DNA from: a virus
IMG/VR virus record: IMGVR_UViG_3300030110_000121
Coordinates: 1 to 34,353 of that record
DNA: 34,353 nt
Reading direction: 5' to 3' (one strand)
A program made the translations under genes and the position numbers. The number at the start of each line of letters is the position of its first letter. The first letter of the stretch is position 1. Positions 5,734-31,853 of this stretch are shown in pieces. The notes under the pieces were generated by a model, which was not told the DNA's origin, did not search any database, and worked only from the letters and a program-made list of their open reading frames with translations.

Positions 5734-8373
5734 TTAATCTCCAGATTCGCTCTGAGCTTTTGGTTGGCTTATTTTACCCATTTTAAACATAAGATCTTCA
5801 AAAGTCGCACCTTCAGATTGCGGGTCATCTTGCTGCGTTTCTGTTGTTTTAACTCCGTCGGAGATATTAGACAAAATTTGGTAACCTGATTTTAGAGAAG
5901 CAAGCTCTTGAAGATTTTTATCTAACTTTGCGTATTCATCGCTATCCAATGGAATATTTTCATTATTTAATCGATCAACAATAATTTGTTCAGCATCCGC
6001 AATTCTTGAAACAAGCGCCTTGGCATAAGAAGCGGCTTCATCATCCCCCGTCCAAAAAGCACCGGGTTTTGGAACAAGTTCGTCCAACTTTTGTTGTTGA
6101 AAAACACTTTCCCTAATTTCTGCGGCTTGCGTGAAGAAAGTCATAAATTTATTGTTTAAGTTTTTAACGGCAACAGTTGCTTCTTTTGCCTCTTTTGCAG
6201 GGGATCCAAAAAATCCAAAACTAAGCGCCTCCACACCTTTATTATAAATATTTGCAAGGAAGGACGGAGATCCAAAAGCTTGCGAAGCATCTGTAACATC
6301 TTTAAATAAAATAGATTGTTCGTCTGCTGAAACTTCGTAAGGCACAGCTTCTTGAAGCCTTTTGCCTGTAACGTTTTCATAAAGCTCGTTAAATCTTTTT
6401 GTAGTTGAGTCTTTTAACTTATCCGTCAATTCGGTTGGTAAACGTAAACCGGGAGTAGAGACATATTGTTTTGTTTGATCATTCCATTCCCTGCCAGGAT
6501 CTGTGTATTTCAACAAACGACCCTCATAAAGTTCAGCGTTATCTAACGTTCCGTCAAGAAAGGCATCTATACGTTTTTTACCATCTTCCGTACTACCAAC
6601 TAAATACTCTAACAGATCATTGTTATTTTTTACTTCAAGCGATTTAAGTTTATTAATTTCAGCTTTCAAAGCTAAATCTTGATTTTTATAATCTTGATCG
6701 AAATACATTTTCAGTTTTTCTAAAGTAAGTTTTTCGTCGCCTTGAAGCAATCTATGTTCTTCAAATGCTTTTGTGATCATCATATCGGCATGTTTTAAAG
6801 CACGATCTTTATCTTCCGAAGCTAAATCAAGATTTTTAATTTTTTCCTCAAACTCTCTTCGTAAGACAGCTTCGTCTGATTTAAAATCTCTATCTTTTTG
6901 GTTTTCAAATTGAGTGGATATTCTTGCAAGTGAGTTTTGAGCCGCTTGAAAGTTTCTTTCACTTTGTGCAGCAACTCTATCAATACCTGCTTTTTTATCA
7001 ATAACCCCAAGTTCAAAATCTTGCGCGTTTTCGATTTTTGCTAATTCAAAATTATTTTTAACACCCAACACTTCTAATTTAGTGCTTAAATCTAATTGTG
7101 CATTTAATGTAGCCAACTCTTTTTGAGCCGACGCTAATCGATTAGCAGCAAGGACTTGTGCTTGCCTGTCTTTACTGTTTTCAGCAGCGGTTGCTGTAAT
7201 TTTTAAATTCGCTAATGTTTGTTCAAGATTTAATTTATCTTTTTGTAGTTCTCTTTTTAACTCAGCCTCTGACTTCGCAGCGTCTTTTCTTGCCCCTATT
7301 TCTACCCTTGTTAATTCAAGACGATTTAAATTTTCTTGTGCTAATTTATTCATCTCAAAGGCTCTGCCTTGAGCGCCCGCCAATTGTCTTTCGGCACTTT
7401 CAAGAGCACTTAAATCCATTTGTTGTTCTTGTTGTTTTTGCACATCTTTCATCTGTTGAAACTGTGCCGCCCGTTCACCGATTTTAGGAGCAAGTTGTGA
7501 TTGAGCCACCGCATTTGCCAGACGTTCAGCAACAGAACGCCCGTCAGTAGATCCTGCAAACTGTAAGCCTGCCTGCGCTATGTCAAACAACATCTGAGCT
7601 TGAGTTAATCGTTTTTGTTCTTCAAGTTGCGCTGCCCGTTCTTGAGGTGTTCCCAAGATCCCGCGTCGGATGCCCTGGGCCTCTTTATAATAAGGCATCA
7701 AAGACGTGCCTAAATCTAAAGCTACAGGCTTTTCATCCTTTGGCCCACCGGGAGGAGTACCCTTCTGAAACTTTCGGACCATGACAGGTCCACCTTGGTT
7801 AAAATTTACGGGTGGAGTGTTGCCCGCCCCCATTGCCATGAGTTCGCCAACGCCTTGGGACATCTGTTCCCCTTCAGCCATACCAACGTCTTGGACAAGA
7901 GACTGCATCAACTCGCCAATGCCGCTGTCTACCGCGCCCTCTTCTGTCATCATTATGGTCGGCTGCACCATTGCCAAAACACTTTCTGGCGTTTTATTTG
8001 CATCAGCTTCCCCGACATATCCTGCAAGTTCCGCGTACCGCGCTTCAAGGGGCTTCTCATTGCCTCTAAATGCGTCGATCAAACCCTTCGCATCATCAGC
8101 CCCGTCTATATTAGTAATCATTTCAGAGGCATAAGCCTGACCCAACTCTTCGCCTTGACCCATTGCAAGATCTTCCATGCCTTGCACCTGTGCCACCTGT
8201 TCAGGATTTACTTGCGGTGGTGCCATGCCCATCATTGGCGGAGCCGCAGGACCGCCCATTTGACGGAACAAAGGCCGATTCATTACGGACCCACCGCCGT
8301 AAAACTCTTCGGCTGCTTCTGGATCGATCTTTCTTTGCACGTACTCTGGTAGTGCCTGAAAACCTTTATTCAT
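5734..8373 (-). CDS. Long coiled-coil internal virion protein, 879 aa
   Basis: The N-terminal 200 residues are Met/Gly/Pro-rich, with the motifs YGGGSVMNRP (about 25-34) and FNQGGPVMVRKF (about 192-203). The middle, roughly 240-570, is a long Gln/Glu/Lys/Ala-rich coiled coil with heptad-like spacing and few prolines. The C-terminal third is more globular and ends in an acidic tail. The start codon overlaps the stop of the 376-aa gene as TAATG, and no clear Shine-Dalgarno sequence precedes it, so expression probably depends on reinitiation. Architecture and neighbours point to an ejected or internal-core virion protein; a tape-measure-like scaffold is possible. No enzymatic motif was seen. Confidence 0.68.
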   Translation of the reverse strand: MNKGFQALPEYVQRKIDPEAAEEFYGGGSVMNRPLFRQMGGPAAPPMMGMAPPQVNPEQVAQVQGMEDLAMGQGEELGQAYASEMITNIDGADDAKGLIDAFRGNEKPLEARYAELAGYVGEADANKTPESVLAMVQPTIMMTEEGAVDSGIGELMQSLVQDVGMAEGEQMSQGVGELMAMGAGNTPPVNFNQGGPVMVRKFQKGTPPGGPKDEKPVALDLGTSLMPYYKEAQGIRRGILGTPQERAAQLEEQKRLTQAQMLFDIAQAGLQFAGSTDGRSVAERLANAVAQSQLAPKIGERAAQFQQMKDVQKQQEQQMDLSALESAERQLAGAQGRAFEMNKLAQENLNRLELTRVEIGARKDAAKSEAELKRELQKDKLNLEQTLANLKITATAAENSKDRQAQVLAANRLASAQKELATLNAQLDLSTKLEVLGVKNNFELAKIENAQDFELGVIDKKAGIDRVAAQSERNFQAAQNSLARISTQFENQKDRDFKSDEAVLRREFEEKIKNLDLASEDKDRALKHADMMITKAFEEHRLLQGDEKLTLEKLKMYFDQDYKNQDLALKAEINKLKSLEVKNNNDLLEYLVGSTEDGKKRIDAFLDGTLDNAELYEGRLLKYTDPGREWNDQTKQYVSTPGLRLPTELTDKLKDSTTKRFNELYENVTGKRLQEAVPYEVSADEQSILFKDVTDASQAFGSPSFLANIYNKGVEALSFGFFGSPAKEAKEATVAVKNLNNKFMTFFTQAAEIRESVFQQQKLDELVPKPGAFWTGDDEAASYAKALVSRIADAEQIIVDRLNNENIPLDSDEYAKLDKNLQELASLKSGYQILSNISDGVKTTETQQDDPQSEGATFEDLMFKMGKISQPKAQSESGD

Positions 8374-13977: not shown

Positions 13978-14818
13978 CTGTCTTGTCCTCTAGCTGTGGA
14001 GTGTTAGTCAAAGATGTTTTGTCCATGATATCAAAACCACGACTGTTTGCAAAGTCTGTTGGGCAGTGCGCCCACTTTTCTGCACAAGCCTCTAACCACT
14101 GCACTGTGTGGTGATGCTCTGGTGCTTTACCTTCTTTAATAATAGAGTTTTCCCACTGCAAATACGAGAAGACTTCTGCTTGTGCTTGTGCTGCATTTAT
14201 CCCTAAATCAAAGATGTAGATAAGATTACCCTCATCTATCTGACCGTTACGACTTCTAGCCGCGTTTAATGCCTGCTTCATGCAAGTCATAATGTGGTAC
14301 TTAACTTCTTCTAGTTCATAGTCTTCTTCAGTAAGCTCATCCTTACCGATCTTCTTCATCAGGTTGTCATACTGATTGGTAAAGAAGTTTAGCTTTCTTA
14401 CTGCACCTTCTACATAGCCACGAGAGCTTGCCGCCTGTGCTTGCTTTTCGTTTATCTTTACCTCAAGCATTTCACGTTCAAGATCGTCTGTCTCTGTTTC
14501 TAACTTACGCTCTAGCTTTTTGAGCTTTACTTCTTCTTTCTTCATCTTGAAGTAGCCCTCTTGCAAGGCTGCTTTAGTCTTCTCAATCTCAGCTAAACTG
14601 TGCTTGATAGAACGGATAGGAGTAATAGCCGTAACATCAAGTGTAACGCTCATCATCTGGGAGTGTGACTTGTAAAAGTTACTAGATGCCTTTGCAATTA
14701 CAGGAGCTTTTTCCTGTATGTTTGCCAACATAGATTTGTATTCAGGCTTCGCTTGTGGAAGCTGAATGTTTATGTCAGGCGTAGTAAGTGCTACTTCTTG
14801 TGTTGTGTCTTTAGGCAT
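13952..14818 (-). CDS. Coiled-coil tail-region protein, 288 aa
   Basis: I choose the ATG at 14818, which overlaps the stop of the 172-aa gene as TAATG; the longer frame to 14905 would overlap that gene by 88 bases and adds a non-protein-like leader. Residues ~75-145 are a dense Lys/Glu/Leu coiled coil (KLKKLERKLETETDDLERE). The remaining sequence is helical with scattered aromatic residues and several cysteines near the C-terminus (MTCMK, LEACAEKW). No known domain is recognised. The protein could be an assembly chaperone or a structural spacer acting with the fibre proteins encoded just before it. Confidence 0.62.
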   Translation of the reverse strand: MPKDTTQEVALTTPDINIQLPQAKPEYKSMLANIQEKAPVIAKASSNFYKSHSQMMSVTLDVTAITPIRSIKHSLAEIEKTKAALQEGYFKMKKEEVKLKKLERKLETETDDLEREMLEVKINEKQAQAASSRGYVEGAVRKLNFFTNQYDNLMKKIGKDELTEEDYELEEVKYHIMTCMKQALNAARSRNGQIDEGNLIYIFDLGINAAQAQAEVFSYLQWENSIIKEGKAPEHHHTVQWLEACAEKWAHCPTDFANSRGFDIMDKTSLTNTPQLEDKTDGTQSSKV

Positions 14819-15336
14819 TATGAAGGCTTCGTTGGCATGGTGTGAGTATGAGGCCATCCTGATGCAGTTGGCAAATCTCTGAGTGCTTGACGATATGTAA
14901 CCCACTCAGCTTTCTTTTCTGTAGTCAAAGCGGTATCAGCCATTTGAGTCCAATCAGATTCTGCCAACAGGGTTGTTCGAGTAGACCTTTGGGCTTCAGC
15001 CGCATCAGCATCAACACGAGCACGGTACGCTGTGGTTTGTGCGTCAACCGATTGTACGTTGCCATCATCGTCTGTAAATTCGGTAAACACTGGCCCAACA
15101 GAATTGACTGTCATCCAGTTGCCATCAGAATCCTGCGCTACACCAGAGCGAAAACTATACTCGTAAGGTGGCGTTGTGTCGGCTTGAGCACTTTCCATAA
15201 CAGCATCTGCACCAAGACCATTTAGGCGTTCTGCTGTGAGCGTTGGCTCTAGAACAGGTCGAGTTTTCTTGTGCATCGTGCGGAAGGTTATTTCCGTCAC
15301 TACCTCTTCCGTGTCTCTTATTCTTATTAGTCCCAT
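14818..15336 (-). CDS. Tail fibre assembly-chaperone-like protein, 172 aa
   Basis: The C-terminal third carries the pattern LLAESDWTQMADTAL (about 123-137) followed by WVTYRQALRDLP and a WP near the end. This combination is typical of the Phage_tail_APC / tail-fibre-assembly group, in which a short C-terminal module (SDWTQ...W..YRQALRD) recurs across many phages. The N-terminal 100 residues are a separate, strand-rich region with acidic turns. The gene lies directly downstream of the large LamG fibre-type gene, where fibre chaperones are normally found. Start: ATG 15 bases after the previous stop with AAGGAG upstream. Whether it remains in the virion is unknown. Confidence 0.7.
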   Translation of the reverse strand: MGLIRIRDTEEVVTEITFRTMHKKTRPVLEPTLTAERLNGLGADAVMESAQADTTPPYEYSFRSGVAQDSDGNWMTVNSVGPVFTEFTDDDGNVQSVDAQTTAYRARVDADAAEAQRSTRTTLLAESDWTQMADTALTTEKKAEWVTYRQALRDLPTASGWPHTHTMPTKPS

Positions 15337-15351
15337 GACTAAACTCCTTTC

Positions 15352-18042
15352 TTATGCGATTGCGTAAAAGATGTATGTACCGCCATTAATGCTAATTGGA
15401 TTAGCTCCTTGTTGAGTTAGCTGAAAACCAGAACTATGAGGTTCTATATTGTTTGTGTTAGTGACTCCTGCATCAGTCGTATCTAACAACAAGTATGGGT
15501 CATCTGCTGAACTATTTATTCCTCTAACACTATCGTAAAGGTACCAACTTCCTGCTGCATCAGTACGTTTGCAAATAACTAGACGAGCACCTGCGCTAAA
15601 TCCACAATCAACTGTAACAACGCCTGAACTTGATCCAGTATAGCTTCCAACCTTGGATACACCTGCGACTGTCGCAAATAAGTAATTCATGAAGGTTCCA
15701 CCAGACTGATTAGTTCTATGTTGTGTGCCTACAGTAAAAACACTACTAGTTGGCGTTGTACTATCCCAAGCACCAGTGCCAGTTGCTTCTGCGTCAGTGT
15801 TTTCTAATGCAAGATACTTTGTATTGCCTATATCTTTATGATAAACATACCAACCATAACTAGTATCTCTACGTTTTACCCACATCATCTCTGGCACTAC
15901 ACCAAGGTTGTGACTTACATTGTGTGTACTTCCTGTACCTGTGTAAGCAACTACATCGAAATAGCTAGGTGCACGCTTCCACATCCAACTCATAGCATTA
16001 GAATCGCCCCAAAGCGCATCAATATGACCGTCCATAAAATCAAAACCAGCCTCACTTGCATTAGCTTCAGCAGCCGTTGAATCTGTATATAAAGTTTTTT
16101 CTCCTAATAACCTTGAATAAACAAACCAACTACTAGAAGCAGTTGTTAACTTAACAAGACCCATATCAACAATATGAGTACTGTCAAAGTAAGGGGCGCT
16201 ACTTCCTATATAATCTATGCTAAAAACCTGAGTCCCTGCGGTAGGTGCAGCTAGTGGGCCAGCCCTGATTGCCATGTAGATTATCGTTGCATTTGTTATA
16301 CCAGAGCCAACTCCGTTGCCATCAAAACCAGTAGCAGTTGGAGCGCCAAGATAAGTATTACTACCCCAACTTGTTGTTTCTGCCGCAGCCGCATTAGCCT
16401 CAAGAGGTTTTGTACCTGTTTTTGAGTACTCACGCATATCGTCCAAAAGAAACCAAGATGTTGAACTTGTAGCAGATTTTAAGAGTACAAACTCTGGCTC
16501 AAACCCAAGATCTACAGAAGGGAAAATACCTGTTCCATCCGTTGTAAACGAACCACACTTGATAATATCATCGCTTCCAGTAGGGCCGAACCCACCGTCA
16601 TTATTATTGTGTGCGAATAAGTAGGCTACATAGCTGTCACCGTTATTATTAACATTACCATTTGTTTCAACAGTAAACTGAGTAGCAGTAGGCGCTGTTT
16701 GCCAATGATCACTTTGAGTTACCACCGCTGCTGTATCATCTAGATTAAGAAACTTTCCTGTTCCTAAACTTCTATGATATACAGACCACCTTGTTGTGCT
16801 ACCTGCATATTTCTTTACAATCATCATTCCAGGCACTGAGCCTAGATTGTGATTTATTTGACGGTCTGCATTTCCATCCCCCGTATATGTTACGATGTCA
16901 AGAAATTTAGCCTGTTTCCTGAATGTCCACGAGACTTTACTGTTTCCAGAACTATTTTCTGCACCTAATGAACCTAAAGTAAAACCAGAAGAAGTAAAAG
17001 CTGTCAAACCGTTAGATCGAGTTTGATTTACATCTGTTGTGTTTGATTTTATCGCATAATACGCACCACGAGCAGTATCGTAGAGCATATGTGAGTTAGA
17101 GCCACTATCTCTATCTTTAATCCAAACCAACCCACCTTCGCCATTTGCGGTTGTATCTAAAGGAAGTGCTGCATTAGGTGGGGTGAAATTACCAGTATAT
17201 CTAGCGGAGCCATTAGTTATTCGCCAATCATCTATGTACCCTGTGAAAGTATAATTTGAATCCCAGTGAGTACCTATCTCTAAATCATCCATAACAAAGT
17301 TATAACCTGATACATCTGTACCACTTGTAACAGCCGTACCATTTACATATAATTTTAATGTGTTGTCATATCTTACTATTGCGACATGATGCCAAGTGCT
17401 ATTTGAGATAGCTCCACCAGTAGAAGTAATTGTTCCAGAGGGTGTACCATCAACCCCATTTTTAAAATTGAAAACGTACTCACTTCCAGCATGATATAAA
17501 GCCAAACTATAGTTGCTAGTGGTGCTTCCATCCCAAAGATGAAAAATACCTTTTGTTGTACTTGCGTCTGCATAATATGCCCAAAACTCAAGAGTAAAGT
17601 CCGTTGTACCTAAAATATAAGTGCCACTACTTGTTCGTAAATAATCACCACTTCCGTCAAAGTATATTGAGCCTGTTCCATATTTTTTAGTTGTAGTATT
17701 GACAGAGGTATTTCCAACCGCTGTTACAGTGTGGCTGAAAGGAGAGCTATCATTAAGTGAATCTCCTGTTAAATGAAGTACAGTGTTTTCCGTTGCCCAA
17801 GTACCAAGATTAATATTATTTTCGATAGCCTGTGAAGAGCCGTTTCCCTCATATAAGAATGTTGAAAAAACATTTTCCACATTAGTAGCAACATTCCCCA
17901 CCGTGGGCCATTTTTCTTTCTTCTGTAGCTCTACAACTTCGTCTATTGACCACACCCCTGGAGCGGAGGTTACTTCTAAATTATTAGCAGGCTCAACAGC
18001 CGTGGCTCTAATTATATTTGCCTCGTATCGTTTATCTGACAT
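15352..18042 (-). CDS. LamG-domain tail/receptor-binding protein with modular C-terminus, 896 aa
   Basis: After a short N-terminal anchor with GVWSIDEVVELQ (29-40), residues ~87-295 form a concanavalin A-like LamG jelly-roll: GSIYFDGSGDYL, FTLEFWAYY, WHHVAIVRYDNTLKLYVNG and GYIDDWRI are its usual strands. From ~300 to the end the sequence is a chain of ~95-residue modules (VTYTG..., HNLGSVPGMMIVKK, SVYHRSLG, YLFAHNN and variants) of a type I believe corresponds to DUF7483-like regions of marine phage tail proteins. LamG folds bind glycans, so host-surface recognition is the likely job. The start overlaps the previous stop as TAATG, with GGAGGA upstream. It is followed by a fibre-chaperone-like gene, consistent with a fibre or spike. 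Confidence 0.82.
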   Translation of the reverse strand: MSDKRYEANIIRATAVEPANNLEVTSAPGVWSIDEVVELQKKEKWPTVGNVATNVENVFSTFLYEGNGSSQAIENNINLGTWATENTVLHLTGDSLNDSSPFSHTVTAVGNTSVNTTTKKYGTGSIYFDGSGDYLRTSSGTYILGTTDFTLEFWAYYADASTTKGIFHLWDGSTTSNYSLALYHAGSEYVFNFKNGVDGTPSGTITSTGGAISNSTWHHVAIVRYDNTLKLYVNGTAVTSGTDVSGYNFVMDDLEIGTHWDSNYTFTGYIDDWRITNGSARYTGNFTPPNAALPLDTTANGEGGLVWIKDRDSGSNSHMLYDTARGAYYAIKSNTTDVNQTRSNGLTAFTSSGFTLGSLGAENSSGNSKVSWTFRKQAKFLDIVTYTGDGNADRQINHNLGSVPGMMIVKKYAGSTTRWSVYHRSLGTGKFLNLDDTAAVVTQSDHWQTAPTATQFTVETNGNVNNNGDSYVAYLFAHNNNDGGFGPTGSDDIIKCGSFTTDGTGIFPSVDLGFEPEFVLLKSATSSTSWFLLDDMREYSKTGTKPLEANAAAAETTSWGSNTYLGAPTATGFDGNGVGSGITNATIIYMAIRAGPLAAPTAGTQVFSIDYIGSSAPYFDSTHIVDMGLVKLTTASSSWFVYSRLLGEKTLYTDSTAAEANASEAGFDFMDGHIDALWGDSNAMSWMWKRAPSYFDVVAYTGTGSTHNVSHNLGVVPEMMWVKRRDTSYGWYVYHKDIGNTKYLALENTDAEATGTGAWDSTTPTSSVFTVGTQHRTNQSGGTFMNYLFATVAGVSKVGSYTGSSSGVVTVDCGFSAGARLVICKRTDAAGSWYLYDSVRGINSSADDPYLLLDTTDAGVTNTNNIEPHSSGFQLTQQGANPISINGGTYIFYAIA

Positions 18043-18986
18043 TAAGCTATTCCTCCATGACCGTTAGAACACCCACCAAAGTTAGATACTTCAGCAGTAA
18101 GATCTCCAAAATCAGAAGCATTGCCCGTAGAAGCTATAGTGACCTTATCAATCTGGTTGCCTCTACCACTGCCTGACCCATCAAATCCACCCGCAAATAC
18201 AGCTAGTATTTTATTTGAGTTAGACGCACAATCGCTCACAGCAACTGTAAGATCACCAAAATCTGTGGCGTTTCCTGTGGAAGCTATCGTTACATACGCT
18301 ATTACATTTTGCCTTCCACTATTACCCCCTGCAAACAAGGCTCTTGTATTAGAAGCTGCGCCTGCGGGATGGTTGGAAGTAGCAACTGTAAGATCACCAA
18401 AATCTTGGGAATTTCCTGTTGAAGCTATAGTTATATACTGTATTACATTACTAAGCCCTGGAGATGTGGCATAGCCCCCTGCAAACAAACCTCTTGTTGG
18501 AGATGACGTAGAGCCAAGACTATTTACAGGCGAAAGCAAATCTCCAAAATCTGTTGCATTACCTGTTGAAGCTATAGTTATATATTCAATTACGTCTGTT
18601 CGTGCTGAAGTATAACCACCACCAACAACCCCTCTGGTTGAGCTAGAATGTGCAGCATTCAATCTTGTTGCCGTAGTTAAATCTCCAAAATCAGAAGCAT
18701 TGCCTGCACTAGCAAAAGTAACATAATCCATTATATTTGAAGCTGAACCGCGTTCTCCACCAAGCCATACACCCCTAGTCGTTGATCCGCAGGCAGCAGG
18801 GGTTTCACCTCCTGATGTTAAATCTCCAAAATCAATGGCATTTCCACTTGACCCCATTAAGAGTTGCTGAATTACATTTGAGTTACCATTACCACCCCCA
18901 AATAAAGCTATTGTGGGGCCAACAGGCCAACCTGAAACATTCTGCATCTGCGTTGTGAGCGACCATACACCTTGATAATTTGGCAT
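18042..18986 (-). CDS. Six-repeat propeller-like tail protein, 314 aa
   Basis: I choose the start at 18986 (TAATG overlap, GGAGGA upstream); the frame extends to 19016, but those 10 residues overlap the previous gene. After an anchor-like N-terminus (GVWSLTTQMQ, similar to GVWSIDEVVELQ in the next gene), six tandem units of ~45-50 residues follow. Each reads roughly TRGVFAGGY..., NVIxYITIASTGNATDFGDL, then a variable stretch. The layout of one four-strand-like unit per ~48 residues, six times, suggests a six-bladed beta-propeller of the Kelch type; the fold is inferred. It ends GCSNGHGGIA. It is a close paralogue of the next upstream gene, probably a receptor-binding or fibre-tip subunit. Confidence 0.75.
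   Translation of the reverse strand: MPNYQGVWSLTTQMQNVSGWPVGPTIALFGGGNGNSNVIQQLLMGSSGNAIDFGDLTSGGETPAACGSTTRGVWLGGERGSASNIMDYVTFASAGNASDFGDLTTATRLNAAHSSSTRGVVGGGYTSARTDVIEYITIASTGNATDFGDLLSPVNSLGSTSSPTRGLFAGGYATSPGLSNVIQYITIASTGNSQDFGDLTVATSNHPAGAASNTRALFAGGNSGRQNVIAYVTIASTGNATDFGDLTVAVSDCASNSNKILAVFAGGFDGSGSGRGNQIDKVTIASTGNASDFGDLTAEVSNFGGCSNGHGGIA
18045..18917 (-). repeat. Six tandem ~145-base coding repeats (second fibre paralogue)
   Basis: Six in-frame units encode the STGNATDFGDL-type repeat. On the plus strand the most conserved core resembles 'ccaaaatctgtggcgtt', near 18105, 18255, 18400, 18547, 18690 and 18826. Between cores the units diverge, mainly in the segment coding for the presumed surface loop. 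Confidence 0.85.
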
Positions 18987-20176
18987 TATGCAAGTCCTCC
19001 GTGCACATTGGAGCATCCTGCACCTTCATACCTTGCAAGAGTAAGATCTCCAAAATCTGTGGAGTTTCCAGTGTTTGCTATAGTAATATATTCAATCCTA
19101 TTAGACACCCCACCGCCATCATAACCCCCTGCAAAAGTACCTCTTGTTTTACTTGATGCTGCCATAAGATTAGAAGTTCCTGTGCTTAGATTACCAAAAT
19201 CTGTAGCATTACCTGTAGAAGCAGTGGTTACATAATCTATTTCATCTTTAGCACTAGCGGCATAACCACCACCAAAAACTGCTCTTGTAGATGACGAACA
19301 TCCTGCTAAACCATCTCTAGCCACTGTTAAATCTCCAAAATCTGTAGCATTACCTGTGCTTGCTATAGTCACATAATCCATAATGTTATATCTTGTGAAT
19401 GGAGATCCCCCTACTCTACCACCTGCCATCACAGCCCTAGTAGTATTACCTGCGGAAGCAGGTAGAACACGAGCTTGAGTTGAGTCACCAAAATCTGTGG
19501 AGTTACCTGTAGAAGCTATAGTTACATATTCTATTACATTAGAGTCTGAACCTGCATTACCGTTACAAAATAAACCTCTAGTTTCATTTGAAACACCAGA
19601 GCCTTGAGTTGTATTTGTTAATAAATCACCAAATGTGGAGGCATTTCCTGTAGAAGCTATTGTAATATACTGTATTAAATTACTTGGACTAGTCGCACCT
19701 CCTCCAACAACACCTCTTGTTGATGAGCCAAAAGCACCACGAAAGTTTTCTCTATTTTGATCAAGATCTCCAAAGTCAGTAGCATTGCCAGTGCTTGATA
19801 TTGTAATATAGTCTATAACATTTGATCCAGAGGTTCCTTGTCCTGCAAAAAATATACCTCTAGGATTAGTAGGACTAACACTCCCACTCGCATCACTAGG
19901 CGCAGAATATCCAAACGCATTGATTGCCCATACGTTAAATGTATAGGTCGTTCCATTAGAAAGACCTGTGACATTAATCGGAGAAGAAGTTCCAGAAGCA
20001 CCTACGCCAGTATTTGACTGCGCTCTATAGCCCGTTATTGCCGAACCGCCGACATCAGTTGGTGCAGTAAAGCTTACCGTTGCCTGTGCATTACCTGCGG
20101 AAGCACTAACACTTGTAGGGCTATCTGGTGCATTCAGCCCGTCTTGACCTATAAAGCCGCCTCTACCTCTAGCCAT
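18986..20176 (-). CDS. FN3 plus six-repeat propeller-like tail protein, 396 aa
   Basis: Residues ~14-104 are a fibronectin type III domain: APDSPTSVSASAGNAQATVS, ITGYRAQS, VTGLSNGTTYTFNVWAIN and a final SAPSDASGSVS. From residue 105, six tandem ~45-50-residue repeats follow (TRGVFGGG..., YVTIASTGNATDFGDL), the same type and number as in the next gene, and both proteins finish with GCSN-x-HGG-x-A. The FN3 domain replaces the GVWSL anchor of the paralogue, so the two may occupy different positions on one fibre or be alternatives. An RBS (AGGAG) precedes the ATG. A host-contact role is inferred from the repeat fold and location in the fibre block. Confidence 0.77.
   Translation of the reverse strand: MARGRGGFIGQDGLNAPDSPTSVSASAGNAQATVSFTAPTDVGGSAITGYRAQSNTGVGASGTSSPINVTGLSNGTTYTFNVWAINAFGYSAPSDASGSVSPTNPRGIFFAGQGTSGSNVIDYITISSTGNATDFGDLDQNRENFRGAFGSSTRGVVGGGATSPSNLIQYITIASTGNASTFGDLLTNTTQGSGVSNETRGLFCNGNAGSDSNVIEYVTIASTGNSTDFGDSTQARVLPASAGNTTRAVMAGGRVGGSPFTRYNIMDYVTIASTGNATDFGDLTVARDGLAGCSSSTRAVFGGGYAASAKDEIDYVTTASTGNATDFGNLSTGTSNLMAASSKTRGTFAGGYDGGGVSNRIEYITIANTGNSTDFGDLTLARYEGAGCSNVHGGLA
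18989..19864 (-). repeat. Six tandem ~145-base coding repeats (first fibre paralogue)
   Basis: Six in-frame units follow the FN3 domain. The core 'tctgtagcattacctgt' or close variants appear on the plus strand around 19045, 19200, 19340, 19493, 19640 and 19778. Together with the adjacent gene this gives twelve similar units within 1.9 kb, an obvious substrate for unequal recombination. Confidence 0.85.
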
Positions 20177-20188
20177 GTGCGACTCCTA

Positions 20189-20566
20189 TTAGTCGGTGAT
20201 TTGCTCGTAGCTTACAATTACTTCTAAATCGCTTGCAGTACCCGCAGTTGCAGTTATCGAAGTATTCTCTTCGAGATATATCGCGGTGCTCTTATCCAAC
20301 ACAATCAATGATGCGTCAGCAGGTACAGACACGGTTGCAACAAGCGAGTATGCTGTGCCGCCTCCTGATGCTGCGCTGTGTACATCTATAGTAATATCAC
20401 AAGCATTTGTGCCATCTACGTTTGCAACTTGGATCATATTCACTTTTAAAACATCATCACTCGATGCCGCGTTACTTAGAAGTGTAGTCTGTGATGTTGA
20501 ACTCAATGCAACCACTGCGGTTTTTCCTAGTATTGAGCTTACATTTACAATATTCGGTGCAGCCAT
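20189..20566 (-). CDS. Small beta-rich virion protein, 125 aa
   Basis: The sequence is made of Ser/Thr/Ala/Val strands with Gly/Asp turns (MAAPNIVNVSSILGKTAVV; IDVHSAASGGG; SLVATVSVPADASLIVLDK). There is no membrane segment or catalytic motif. Proteins with this start and a predicted beta-sandwich composition are common among marine phage structural proteins, but I know no defined role. It sits between a fibre-type gene and the FN3/propeller gene, with a GGAGGCTAAGATATG start region. A trimeric fibre-connector or decoration subunit is a reasonable guess. Confidence 0.65.
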   Translation of the reverse strand: MAAPNIVNVSSILGKTAVVALSSTSQTTLLSNAASSDDVLKVNMIQVANVDGTNACDITIDVHSAASGGGTAYSLVATVSVPADASLIVLDKSTAIYLEENTSITATAGTASDLEVIVSYEQITD

Positions 20567-21281: not shown

Positions 21282-22202
21282 TTACGCTGCTATTTCTGTC
21301 CAAGTTGTGCTTGGATTAGGCTGTTCCTCTGTCCATGTACTACCCGGATTTGGAGAAACACCTGTCCAACTTGTACCTGGAGCAGGAATTATATTACCGT
21401 AAACTAACACAGATCCTACGGTTGCGCTAGTGCTTAAACCTGTAACAGTTACAGAGGATGGTGCAACGATTGTTACACTACCAACTTGACCTGTTGCAGT
21501 CATATCTCCTGCAAACACAGGAACTCTTTGAAAGGTATTAAGTGTAACTGACCCAACAGATGCAGTTGCTGCAATACCTGTGACAGCCACATTCGGTGCA
21601 TCTCCTGAAACAGTCGGTCCTGTTAACTCCCCTGTCGCCGCAATACCTGTCGGCGTAACATCAACACCAACACCTTCGCTAATCGTAACAGAACCTACAC
21701 CACCCGTAGCTGCAATACCTGTCGGCGGTACGTTCACACCAATTATTATACTTGTGCCGGATCCAACCGCAGATGTTGCAGATACCCCTGTTGTGGTTAC
21801 AACAACACCGCCACCCTGAATAACAGTAGCCGTTCCTACAAAACCCTGACCCTGTAATCCTGTAACTGGAACATTCTGTTCTGTGACCAGACTTACGTCA
21901 CCAACGCCACCTGTGGCGGCTATACCTGTAAGATCAATACTATTGTTACCTTGAACCGTAACACTGCCAAGACCTGAAGTTGCCGCTAGTCCTGTAACGG
22001 ATACAGATATATCTTCTCGAACAACAGCAGTGCCAACTTGACCCTGCATGGCTGAAAGAGTAGACTTCTCACCGCCCCAAGCGGTTACACCAAATCCTTC
22101 TTCACCCCAACCGTTGAGAGTATGACCAACACGGACAGGGACCGCTTCACCCCAAGCGCCCTCGCTCCATGTTCCACGACCCCAACCGTTGATGTTCGCC
22201 AT
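21282..22202 (-). CDS. Repetitive beta protein with VTGIAATGxVGSVT repeats, 306 aa
   Basis: Three repeat classes are visible. Residues 6-43 contain tryptophan-glycine motifs (GWGRGTWSEGAWG; NGWGEEGFGVTAWG). Residues ~66-268 hold nine copies of a ~23-residue unit whose core is VTGIAATGGVGSVTV, with a weaker tenth copy at ~49-61. Residues 276-304 hold three short units of the form PNPGSTWTEE. This composition predicts a long, regular beta structure. The same 23-residue unit occurs twice in the 155-aa protein at 24266-24733, and the GWG motif recurs in the 636-aa protein at 11705-13615. A filamentous tail or capsid-surface component is likely; the exact role is unknown. Confidence 0.68.
   Translation of the reverse strand: MANINGWGRGTWSEGAWGEAVPVRVGHTLNGWGEEGFGVTAWGGEKSTLSAMQGQVGTAVVREDISVSVTGLAATSGLGSVTVQGNNSIDLTGIAATGGVGDVSLVTEQNVPVTGLQGQGFVGTATVIQGGGVVVTTTGVSATSAVGSGTSIIIGVNVPPTGIAATGGVGSVTISEGVGVDVTPTGIAATGELTGPTVSGDAPNVAVTGIAATASVGSVTLNTFQRVPVFAGDMTATGQVGSVTIVAPSSVTVTGLSTSATVGSVLVYGNIIPAPGTSWTGVSPNPGSTWTEEQPNPSTTWTEIAA
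21399..22007 (-). repeat. Nine in-frame ~69-base repeats
   Basis: Units begin at about residues 70, 92, 114, 138, 161, 185, 208, 231 and 254 of the 306-aa protein, a spacing of 22-24 residues. The best-conserved copies encode TGIAATGGVGSVT. The regular spacing argues for one structural turn per unit. Confidence 0.8.
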
Positions 22203-22660: not shown

Positions 22661-22957
22661 TCAAAGTCTCCTTATAAGTTCAGCCAGTTGGGGATGACCT
22701 GCATCTTTTATTGCATTGCATACAGTGGTGCGGTCACTACGAATAGCCTGTCTCATATAGTATTCGACGAGCTTTTCAACGTGCTTTGAGAAAGCACGAG
22801 CTTGATCTCTTATACCAGGATGGGCGCTATCAGAGATCGAAATTACTTTTTCTACGCATTGTTGCGCTAATTCTTCAGGCGTAAAACCTCGATTCTCCGT
22901 TGTTCTAACTCCTACAACAGGTTCATCTTTTGGTACGCTTATATCCATTTTAAACAT
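22661..22957 (-). CDS. Small helical protein of the neck region, 98 aa
   Basis: The sequence is helical with a mix of basic and acidic residues. The middle (ELAQQCVEKVISISDSAHPG) and the end (CNAIKDAGHPQLAELIRRL) are the most distinctive parts. The ATG overlaps the adaptor-like gene's stop as TAATG, so it is probably made in step with that protein. No domain, membrane segment or metal site is recognised. The placement suggests a small assembly partner for the neck, but this is not shown by sequence. Confidence 0.6.
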   Translation of the reverse strand: MFKMDISVPKDEPVVGVRTTENRGFTPEELAQQCVEKVISISDSAHPGIRDQARAFSKHVEKLVEYYMRQAIRSDRTTVCNAIKDAGHPQLAELIRRL

Positions 22958-23607
22958 TATTGTTTTGCCCTAATAACTTTTCCTGTGCGATATTCATCTG
23001 TTACTTCTTTTGATTCACCCATCATTTTAAGAGGTAATAAACTTTCTTGAAATCTTTTATCATAGTAACCCATCATATCCTGTTCACCTTTCATATACAA
23101 ATATGCCTCCACCAAAGCACCGTATAAAAGTGTTAACTCTGCATTTTCGCTTAACCAAGTTGTACCACTACTGGATCCGGCAGTTAGACTTGCAGGACGA
23201 TAAAAGTAATGAAGCTCTGCGGTAAATGTGGTGTTAGGGGTTGGAGCCAATATAAAATTATCTACGTCAAAAACAGCATAATATCTTGGAGAACCAGTGG
23301 TTGTAGAATCTGGTGTGTAAGTCTGTATGAAACTTGGATCTTTAAAATCTATGAAAAATTTGTCTCCATCTGTCCCTGCAAGGCTTAAAGAAAACGGAGC
23401 TAAAAAATCACTTGGGCAAGCTAAAAATTTATTACTTGCCGTGCATGACGCTGTCGCGTTTTTACGAAACAAACTTAACTGCACATTTTTTAAAATACGT
23501 TCCTCTGATAATCTAATAAATGTAGGAAGATTATTGACGAAAGTTGTTTCGTCATTTTCCGTGTAGTCTTGAATTGCAGTTTTCAGTTGATCGTATGTAA
23601 AGCTCAT
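22957..23607 (-). CDS. Head-tail adaptor-like protein (SU10-adaptor type), 216 aa
   Basis: The N-terminus is helical (YDQLKTAIQDYTEND; FVNNLPTFIRLSEERIL). It is followed by a strand-rich middle containing LACPSDFLAPFSLSL and a PRYYAVFDVDNFILAPTP strand-turn, then a helical C-terminus with LLYGALVEAYLYMKGE. This helix-strand-helix layout with a 'P.Y......I...P.P' segment fits phage adaptor proteins that form a ring below the portal (I compare it to the SU10 adaptor family). It is the second adaptor-type gene in the block, after the gp4-like gene at 24733-25401. Ring stoichiometry and order in the neck are not readable from sequence. Confidence 0.7.
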   Translation of the reverse strand: MSFTYDQLKTAIQDYTENDETTFVNNLPTFIRLSEERILKNVQLSLFRKNATASCTASNKFLACPSDFLAPFSLSLAGTDGDKFFIDFKDPSFIQTYTPDSTTTGSPRYYAVFDVDNFILAPTPNTTFTAELHYFYRPASLTAGSSSGTTWLSENAELTLLYGALVEAYLYMKGEQDMMGYYDKRFQESLLPLKMMGESKEVTDEYRTGKVIRAKQ

Positions 23608-24265: not shown

Positions 24266-24733
24266 CTATCCCTCGTCAAATGTGTCTGTTGTCGAATCTA
24301 AAGTTACAGAGGTGCTATCAAATCTTGGCACAGAGCTTGTAACAGACACTGTAACGCTTCCCACTGAACCTATTGCTGAGACACCCGTCACAAGGTCTGC
24401 TGAATCGGTAGGGTTAACAACGACTGAGCCGACTTGTCCCAAAGCAATTAAATTATTAGCAGGAGTAATTCCCTCTATTTCTTTAAAACCAACAGGCATA
24501 AAACCATACTGTATAGCTCTTTCAGATGCCACGTCTTGTGGTGGACGAGCATCCTGTAGAGCTTGAGCGTCAATAACCTTACGAAAAGGACCTAACTGAG
24601 GCTGTTTTCTTTCAAACTCATCCTTACCAACTAATGCCCCGTTCCATTCTCGACGCATATCTTGGTATCGATACCTAAAACCAGACCGATCTGATATAGC
24701 GTAAGCGTTTTTTCCAGAGGCAAACTTGGTCAT
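24266..24733 (-). CDS. Virion protein with two TG-repeat units, 155 aa
   Basis: The N-terminal 65 residues carry AISDRSGFRYRYQDMRREWN followed by an EFERKQPQL segment and DAQALQDARP, an arrangement I have seen in small marine phage structural proteins. Residues ~92-130 contain two copies of the ~23-residue repeat (NNLIALGQVGSVVV, VTGVSAIGSVGSVTV) found nine times in the 306-aa protein. The C-terminus is Ser/Thr/Asp-rich. The start overlaps the gp4-like stop as ATGA. It may bind the same partner as the 306-aa protein through the shared repeat; the N-terminal part would then be the neck anchor. Confidence 0.63.
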   Translation of the reverse strand: MTKFASGKNAYAISDRSGFRYRYQDMRREWNGALVGKDEFERKQPQLGPFRKVIDAQALQDARPPQDVASERAIQYGFMPVGFKEIEGITPANNLIALGQVGSVVVNPTDSADLVTGVSAIGSVGSVTVSVTSSVPRFDSTSVTLDSTTDTFDEG

Positions 24734-25401
24734 CAGGTTGTCCTAAAATACTGAAATTGCGGCACCACATTAAAAGAAGCTCTGTCTCGATCCTCCGCCA
24801 TGGCTCTTTCGAACTCTTCTTCATAAACAGCCTTTAAAAGCTGAAGACGATTTGGTGCTCTTTTAAGTGCAATGTAATACGCTAATCCCGCCGCAAGACA
24901 CGGATAGAACCTAAAAGGCATGTCTAAAGTATTTACTTGAGCGTCAGCATCGTCCATGCGGGTAAGGGCGTCATACACAATCACATCTGTGCTATTGTCA
25001 GGGACAGGCCATACCTTCAGATTTGGAGTAATTTGCCTGTCAAGAAAAAACTGGGACGGTCTTCCCTGAGTTGTTTTTACAGGAATAGACAAAAAAGTAT
25101 CTCTACTGACTCGAGTTAAAGCAAAATCTGTATTGTCCCTTCGAACGACCAAAGATAAAACATCTATTACATCTGTGCCAAGATCATATTCACCGTCAGC
25201 TTGCGTAACTGTTTGAGTCCGTTGTTTGATAGTCCATTGGTTTAAACCTCTGTTTGCCCATTCGGCAAGCATAAGATTTAAAGATCTTTTTGCTGTTTTT
25301 AGATCATACCCTGTTCGAACCTCAAGACCGCAACGCTCAAAAGCTTCTTCAATGTATTCTGCTACATCTAACTCAAAATCTTTTGATCCTGATACAGTCA
25401 T
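24733..25401 (-). CDS. P22 gp4-like head-tail connector / adaptor, 222 aa
   Basis: The protein starts with an acidic helix (VAEYIEEAFERCGLEVRTGY), then DLKTAKRSLNLMLAEWANRG and a beta segment. Later it has GRPSQFFLDRQI, LKVWPVPD and a C-terminal helical part with MPFRFYPCLAAGLAYYIALK. This order is characteristic of gp4-like tail accessory factors, which bind the portal ring and extend the DNA channel in podoviruses. Length is near that expected for this group. It is followed by two structural genes and the second adaptor-type protein. The portal itself is not in the window. The start has GAGGAT upstream. Confidence 0.82.
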   Translation of the reverse strand: MTVSGSKDFELDVAEYIEEAFERCGLEVRTGYDLKTAKRSLNLMLAEWANRGLNQWTIKQRTQTVTQADGEYDLGTDVIDVLSLVVRRDNTDFALTRVSRDTFLSIPVKTTQGRPSQFFLDRQITPNLKVWPVPDNSTDVIVYDALTRMDDADAQVNTLDMPFRFYPCLAAGLAYYIALKRAPNRLQLLKAVYEEEFERAMAEDRDRASFNVVPQFQYFRTT

Positions 25402-31400: not shown

Positions 31401-31853
31401 CTAGTAATGCAAAATGTCTTCTGGATCGTTAATTCGAGCCAAAATCTCGTCATCATTTAAAATACGAACTTCTCCGCCATCAATAGCAAAGCGTGATCCC
31501 GCATATCTTGCAAACATCACCCATTCTTTCTCCGCGCACCAAGGGCCAGAAGGAAACTTTTCCTGATCTTGGTATGCCAACGGTCCGACTTTCAATACAT
31601 AGCCGACTTGCGTTGAAATTTGCTGTTGTTCTACAGCAGAATCGGGCAATAATATGCCCCCTTCAGTCTTCCCCTTACCGCGGTAGGGTAAAACTAAAAT
31701 TCTCCATCCTGTGGGGTTGGGCATTCTATCTAGAAGTGACCCGCCTATGGCTTCTGGGTCTAAAACTTTAACTGTTGGCTCTTTGTAAGCATCTCCAAGA
31801 CTTGCTACAGCCTCTTTTACTTCAGTTAAATTAACTTTTGCGCTCTCAGTCAT
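31401..31853 (-). CDS. GroES/Cpn10-like co-chaperonin, 150 aa
   Basis: Residues ~47-145 follow the Cpn10 beta-barrel: PTGWRILVLPYRGKGKTEGG, ILLPDSAVEQQQ, VGYVLKVGPLAYQD, KEWVMFARYAGSRFAIDGGE and VRILNDDEILARI. The segment RGKGKTEGGILLPD corresponds to the mobile-loop region that contacts GroEL. At 150 aa it is longer than cellular GroES (about 97 aa); an N-terminal extension of ~45 residues and a short C-terminal tail account for the difference. A phage co-chaperonin beside scaffold and MCP genes most likely adapts host GroEL to fold the coat protein (as T4 gp31 does). The start overlaps the 65-aa gene by 8 bases. Confidence 0.86.
   Translation of the reverse strand: MTESAKVNLTEVKEAVASLGDAYKEPTVKVLDPEAIGGSLLDRMPNPTGWRILVLPYRGKGKTEGGILLPDSAVEQQQISTQVGYVLKVGPLAYQDQEKFPSGPWCAEKEWVMFARYAGSRFAIDGGEVRILNDDEILARINDPEDILHY

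Follow-up and report, generated by a model that had tools for sequence, protein, structure and literature searches.

The window analyzed here is a stretch of 34,353 nucleotides from a virus (IMG/VR record IMGVR_UViG_3300030110_000121) in which two adjoining genes on the minus strand, termed P1 and P2, each encode six units of about 48 residues. This locus raises the question of what these units form and of how they come to vary. A reading of the sequence alone had proposed that both genes encode six-bladed propellers, produced by gene duplication, whose twelve DNA repeats can recombine and reshuffle receptor-contact loops. Both open reading frames and all 12 copies were confirmed. P1 and P2 each contained six copies of S-T-G-N-x-x-D-F-G-D-L at a spacing of 47 to 51 amino acids (repeats of ~47.7 residues), a DNA repeat finder placed 12 of 12 copies from the window in register, and the ending GCSN-x-HGG-x-A described for both proteins was present as GCSNVHGGLA in P1 and GCSNGHGGIA in P2.

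The N termini were also as first described, with an FN3 domain in one protein and a GVWSL anchor in the other. P1 (positions 18986 to 20176, minus strand, 396 amino acids), a putative fibre-tip protein defined by its ORF, Pfam, AlphaFold2 and Foldseek, starts with the anchor MARGRGGFIGQDG (20123 to 20176, minus), conserved in A-type homologues, followed by an FN3 domain at residues 19 to 96 (19889 to 20122, minus; Pfam PF00041, E value of 6e-8, 33.2 bits against a cut-off of 25) and by the propeller (18989 to 19861, minus; repeat positions and DSSP strands). P2 (18042 to 18986, minus, 314 amino acids; homologue starts, AlphaFold2 and Foldseek) consists of the short anchor MPNYQGVWSLTTQMQNVSGWPV (18921 to 18986, minus) and a propeller of six blades (18045 to 18914, minus; repeat positions and AlphaFold2). 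The listed ORF of P2 extends from 18042 to 19016, a start 10 codons too early; homologues open at MPNYQGVW, and the true start is, judged on these homologues, the one at 18986. The stop codon of P1 and the ATG of P2 therefore have one base in common (18984 to 18988, minus; ORF coordinates). Overlaps of this TAATG type recurred at the joints of swapped relatives, and the P1/P2 overlap would represent both translational coupling and the end of an exchanged module. The repeats of P1 and P2 were covered by no family in a Pfam search, and scattered weak Pfam matches on the repeats of 60 family members were read as spurious. Two PHROG profiles, phrog_26444 and phrog_19111, matched the same repeats at weak to moderate levels, yet covered only part of them and have no assigned function.

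The genes lie within a tail module. Three anchor types were used to name the gene slots, with FN3 anchors defining slot A (P1), GVWSL anchors slot B (P2) and KRYxxNII-GVWS anchors slot C. The slot C gene of the window (15352 to 18042, minus; Pfam, PHROG and sequence) is coupled to P2 through TAATG and carries the anchor MSDKRYEANII...GVWS, but a LamG domain and DUF7483 occupy the position of the propeller; in relatives, this anchor type often bears a propeller. The B and C anchors have a GVWS...W motif in common, which may be a common docking peptide. The gene order runs from P1 and P2 through the LamG/DUF7483 gene to a tail fibre assembly chaperone of the Phage_tail_APC family (14818 to 15336, minus; PF16778, E value of 5.8e-18; PHROG tail fibre assembly), a DNA ejection protein and a transglycosylase-bearing protein. 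Upstream of slot A is a conserved gene (MAAPNIVN..., 20189 to 20566, minus), utilized as a backbone marker in this analysis, and SU10-type adaptor and fibre connector genes are located on one side of the module. This gene content suggests a short-tailed phage, which is probably marine. Two distinct genes of the window, at 22957 to 23607 and 24733 to 25401, both matched the SU10 adaptor family PF24175. Other genes of the window encode a protein with repeated VTGIAATxxVGSVT-like units and without a family match (21282 to 22202) and a GroES-like co-chaperonin (31401 to 31853; phrog_3188, E value of 1.5e-16).

Structure prediction and Foldseek searches of both proteins supported the proposed six-bladed propellers. 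AlphaFold2 models, built from 58 to 60 aligned sequences, had a mean pLDDT of 91.6 for P1 and 94.2 for P2, and the predicted beta-propeller was evident from the DSSP strands of these models, from Foldseek and from blade counts in multiples of six. The best PDB matches of both proteins were six-bladed Kelch domains, including KLHL12 (6v7o; E values of 5e-18 and 5e-19); the designed protein SAKe6 (7on7) matched with a TM-score of about 0.9, and a search against viral proteins detected a set of Kelch-annotated phage proteins. In sequence register, the DSSP strand order opened with one N-terminal strand b, continued through five c-d-a-b units and ended in c-d-a. In Keap1, blade 1 is closed by a C-terminal strand, and the modeled strand order fits closure of this type, with C-terminal strand a completing blade 1. 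As neighboring strands are antiparallel, this order would bring the b-c and d-a loops together on one face of the ring, whereas both termini would share the other face with the a-b and c-d turns. The predicted rings resemble the Kelch propellers of KLHL12, KEAP1 and SAKe6 in having six four-stranded blades, a GG after strand b, a closure-consistent strand order and Foldseek E values of 1e-15 to 1e-19, but differ from them in having 11 to 17% identity and in being phage modules on anchors. Among the Kelch hallmarks, GG and a tyrosine are conserved in the family, whereas the tryptophan is replaced by the phenylalanine of DFG. The Pfam Kelch models PF01344 (E value of 0.21) and PF13418 (0.028) each matched only 1 of 60 members, the family as a whole lacking a Pfam Kelch match.

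Sequence variation was concentrated between the conserved strands, as first noted from the two genes and as confirmed over 1,872 blades: column entropies averaged about 3.2 bits for the d-a and b-c loops, against about 1.4 bits for the a-b and c-d turns. The ratio of dN to dS was higher in loops than in the core in all five comparisons (0.54 and 0.13, 1.4 and 0.17, 0.88 and 0.35, 0.27 and 0.11, and 0.40 and 0.14). A loop value above 1 was obtained in one of these five comparisons and involved few changes; positive selection is, therefore, unproven. The loop variability and dN/dS ratios lend indirect support to the suggestion that the loops are a receptor-contact surface.

The combination of tail position, anchors, chaperone and a variable face makes receptor binding the most likely role of these rings. 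P1 and P2 are encoded beside fibre genes and a chaperone, the same ring was found at the end of a gpJ-like tail protein of a cultured strain of Desulfobacter vibrioformis (phrog_31, E value of 1.5e-85; contig L165, 450 to 4232), and it was present on other fibre N termini in contigs L139 and L177. Propellers of phages and cells can be enzymes, and that of phiKZ gp131C has been discussed as a binder or an enzyme (PMC4901313), which raises the alternative that the rings are glycan-degrading enzymes or structural spacers of the tail rather than receptor binders. This alternative appears unlikely, as the variable loops showed no conserved cluster of polar residues that would suggest a catalytic site, conservation being located in turns and strands, and as the pattern of variation and the exchange between slots described below fit adhesion better.

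Other phage propellers occur in putative receptor-binding proteins, namely, phi11 Gp45 (five blades), PRD1 P2 and phiKZ gp131C (seven blades) (PMC4901313). P1 and P2 are similar to these in that the propeller is part of a putative receptor-binding protein but differ in having six blades, no detected sequence relation and an exchange of rings among three anchor slots. Giant phages encode Kelch-like proteins, e.g., CBB_552 (PMC5259590), and a Kelch-like protein of BcepSaruman was matched in BFVD. These have the same six-bladed Kelch fold, and one of them is a virion protein, but identity was about 18% or less and a slot system is undescribed there. Distant Alteromonas phages share host recognition modules (PMC10579305), a comparable case in which unrelated marine phages exchange receptor-binding modules horizontally; in that system the whole fibre moves with its chaperone, whereas here the ring alone moves and the anchor stays.

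Relatives of the two genes were abundant in viral contigs, and blade number was examined by running a repeat profile over all ORFs of the fetched loci. Among 385 complete and distinct relatives, 309 had six blades and 60 had twelve, such that 369 of 385 were multiples of six. The twelve-blade genes were arranged as 6 + 6, with a longer gap between the halves (~60 residues versus 48). The other 16 included 2 + 4 split pairs, two truncated remnants and a few genes in which blades were probably missed by the profile. Genes fetched with a four-blade query gave the same pattern of counts, and slot C genes, which were never used as a query, had six (n = 45), twelve (n = 17) or two (n = 3) blades. 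No ORF, whole or cut by a contig end, had more than twelve blades. As counts were almost always 6 or 12, this strict counting in sixes supports a closed ring and is well explained only by ring closure. Apparent seven-blade genes were an artifact in which the N-terminal closing strand had scored as a repeat. L161 (11 blades) and L162 (5 blades, with X) were also discarded as exceptions, as both look like missed blades, and L166 was set aside as a divergent protein encoded by a bacterial MAG. The truncated remnants (L102, 3994 to 4194, and L106, 5977 to 6384), with one and three blades, were perhaps generated by deletions or assembly errors. A 652-amino-acid slot A protein of L133 (4043 to 6001) weakly matched a seven-bladed lactonase propeller in addition to having the six blades.

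The family was detected almost exclusively in uncultured phages. A tblastn search of isolate phages with P1 and P2 detected nothing at 1e-5, a search with a more typical relative yielded no more than Synechococcus phage S-SKS1 (33.5%) and a single weak match, and the matches of a PDB sequence search were confined to the FN3 part, besides a few weak overlaps. These proteins represent a large putative receptor-binding family without a Pfam model. The literature searched contained no comparable Kelch-type system for receptor binding, although this does not prove absence; the family, its six-blade rule, ring exchange among slots and split heads (see below) are apparently undescribed.

Comparisons between relatives detected rings with 78 to 97% DNA identity whose anchor was of the FN3 type in one phage and of the GVWS type in the other. 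Slot B of L014 and slot A of L147 carried rings that were 96.5% identical over 887 nt, with identity beginning at the first strand and stopping at TAATG, while the other long aligned stretch of these contigs was about 77% identical. In the two pairs that were aligned at the junction, the ring ended at the stop/start overlap. For L248 and L257, whose flanks were 95.5% (left) and 90.7% (right) identical, the ring present in slot A of one occurred in slot B of the other (93.6%). L245 and L260 were highly similar in the left flank (97.3%), A ring (99.6%) and C anchor (95.9%) but had B rings of only 60.9% identity. Of 114 pairs whose backbones were close, 109 had A rings with <60% amino acid identity, and 51 of 52 had B rings below this value (background median, 47%). 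Contig G001 was 99.66% identical to the window over 8,565 nt, left it within the P2 anchor (at about 18938) and then carried a different slot B ring; as this switch lies at the contig end, it is suggestive only. Slot labels changed 83 times on a ring tree versus 107 with shuffled labels, indicating that slots were weakly tracked, although this parsimony count was obtained from a fast, weakly resolved tree and is of supporting use only. A caveat is that metagenome assemblies may be chimeric in repeats. The best reading of these sequence data is that the unit exchanged is the whole propeller and not the single blade.

Three other sources of diversity were considered. Rings that kept their slot and only mutated quickly would fit the faster evolution of loops than of the core; but ring identity in close pairs was bimodal, being <60% or near-identical with only 3 of 114 pairs between, the rings with 78 to 97% identity occupied different slots between flanks that were less similar or rearranged, and identity stopped at the domain boundary in two such pairs. 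Fast divergence in place is, therefore, very unlikely. Only marginally less credible is mutual recombination among the twelve DNA repeats permuting single blades, as put forward in the sequence-only reading. The window repeats do have exact matches of up to 25 nt, L114 contains several near-identical blades within and between genes, and the remnants of one and three blades in L102 and L106 could be products of such events. Against this, all 141 near-identical blade pairs between contigs (≥88% DNA identity) were at the same ring position, including 26 across anchor classes, and none was at a different one; in whole-ring alignments, the in-register alignment beat the five rotations far more often than the expected 1 in 6 and always did so above 75% identity; blade number was almost always a multiple of six; and P1 was unchanged in the near-identical contig L006. 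Blade-by-blade reshuffling is therefore unsupported and largely refuted. L114 (3875 to 8783) was the only contig with near-identical blades inside a genome, which looks like recent blade homogenization. The strong loop variation at fixed positions would also fit mutation by a diversity-generating retroelement, but a reverse transcriptase (PF00078) was absent from the window and from 14 related contigs (up to 65 kb in length), records that may be incomplete, and this explanation is the least plausible of all.

Whole-ring exchange also bears on the proposed gene duplication. P1 and P2 are paralogous in the broad sense, but a P1-like propeller sits on a B anchor in L024, and the rings therefore look to have been drawn from a shared pool and not to have arisen by recent duplication in the window phage. 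Taken with the results above, the locus is quite probably a multislot receptor-binding cassette whose closed, Kelch-like heads are swapped by recombination, with binding itself deduced from context. P1 and P2 would be receptor-binding heads of the phage tail, each a closed six-bladed Kelch-like propeller on a conserved anchor, with slot C bearing a LamG/DUF7483 head in this phage. Because both termini are on the opposite, conserved face, the variable face would point away from the anchor and toward the host. Diversity would derive from substitution in the loops and, above all, from recombination that exchanges entire propellers among phages and among slots, with one cut at the first strand or the linker and the other at the stop/start overlap.

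In five contigs, the ring was distributed over two adjoining genes, with blades 1 and 2 on the anchor and blades 3 to 6 separate: L018 (6597 to 7639), L037 (3799 to 4778), L078 (3729 to 4811), L170 (4485 to 5701) and L130 (5971 to 6972 and, as a second case that runs off the contig, 6917 to 7462). The split was always after blade 2 and occurred on all three anchor types, with the stop and start overlapping or within a few bases. Junction sequences differed between contigs, making sequencing error an unlikely cause. The four-blade parts of L018, L037, L078 and L170, which follow anchors C, B, C and A, respectively, were 56 to 77% identical. The natural reading of a split pair is a putative two-chain ring. 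A wider proposal, which we advance tentatively and at slightly less than even confidence, is that many uncultured, largely marine phages have a socket system in which three coupled genes with fixed anchors acquire their six-bladed heads out of a common pool, through recombination exactly at the domain borders, and in which some heads are two-chain rings encoded by two genes (blades 1 and 2 on the anchor plus blades 3 to 6) and traded between slots A, B and C.

In this family, the unit of evolution appears to be the whole ring rather than the blade, and a natural test of propeller closure is provided by the strict count of six blades and by the rings encoded in two genes. Should binding be confirmed, a single recombination event could alter the host range of these phages without affecting the remainder of the genome, and hosts should be predicted from the ring instead of the backbone.
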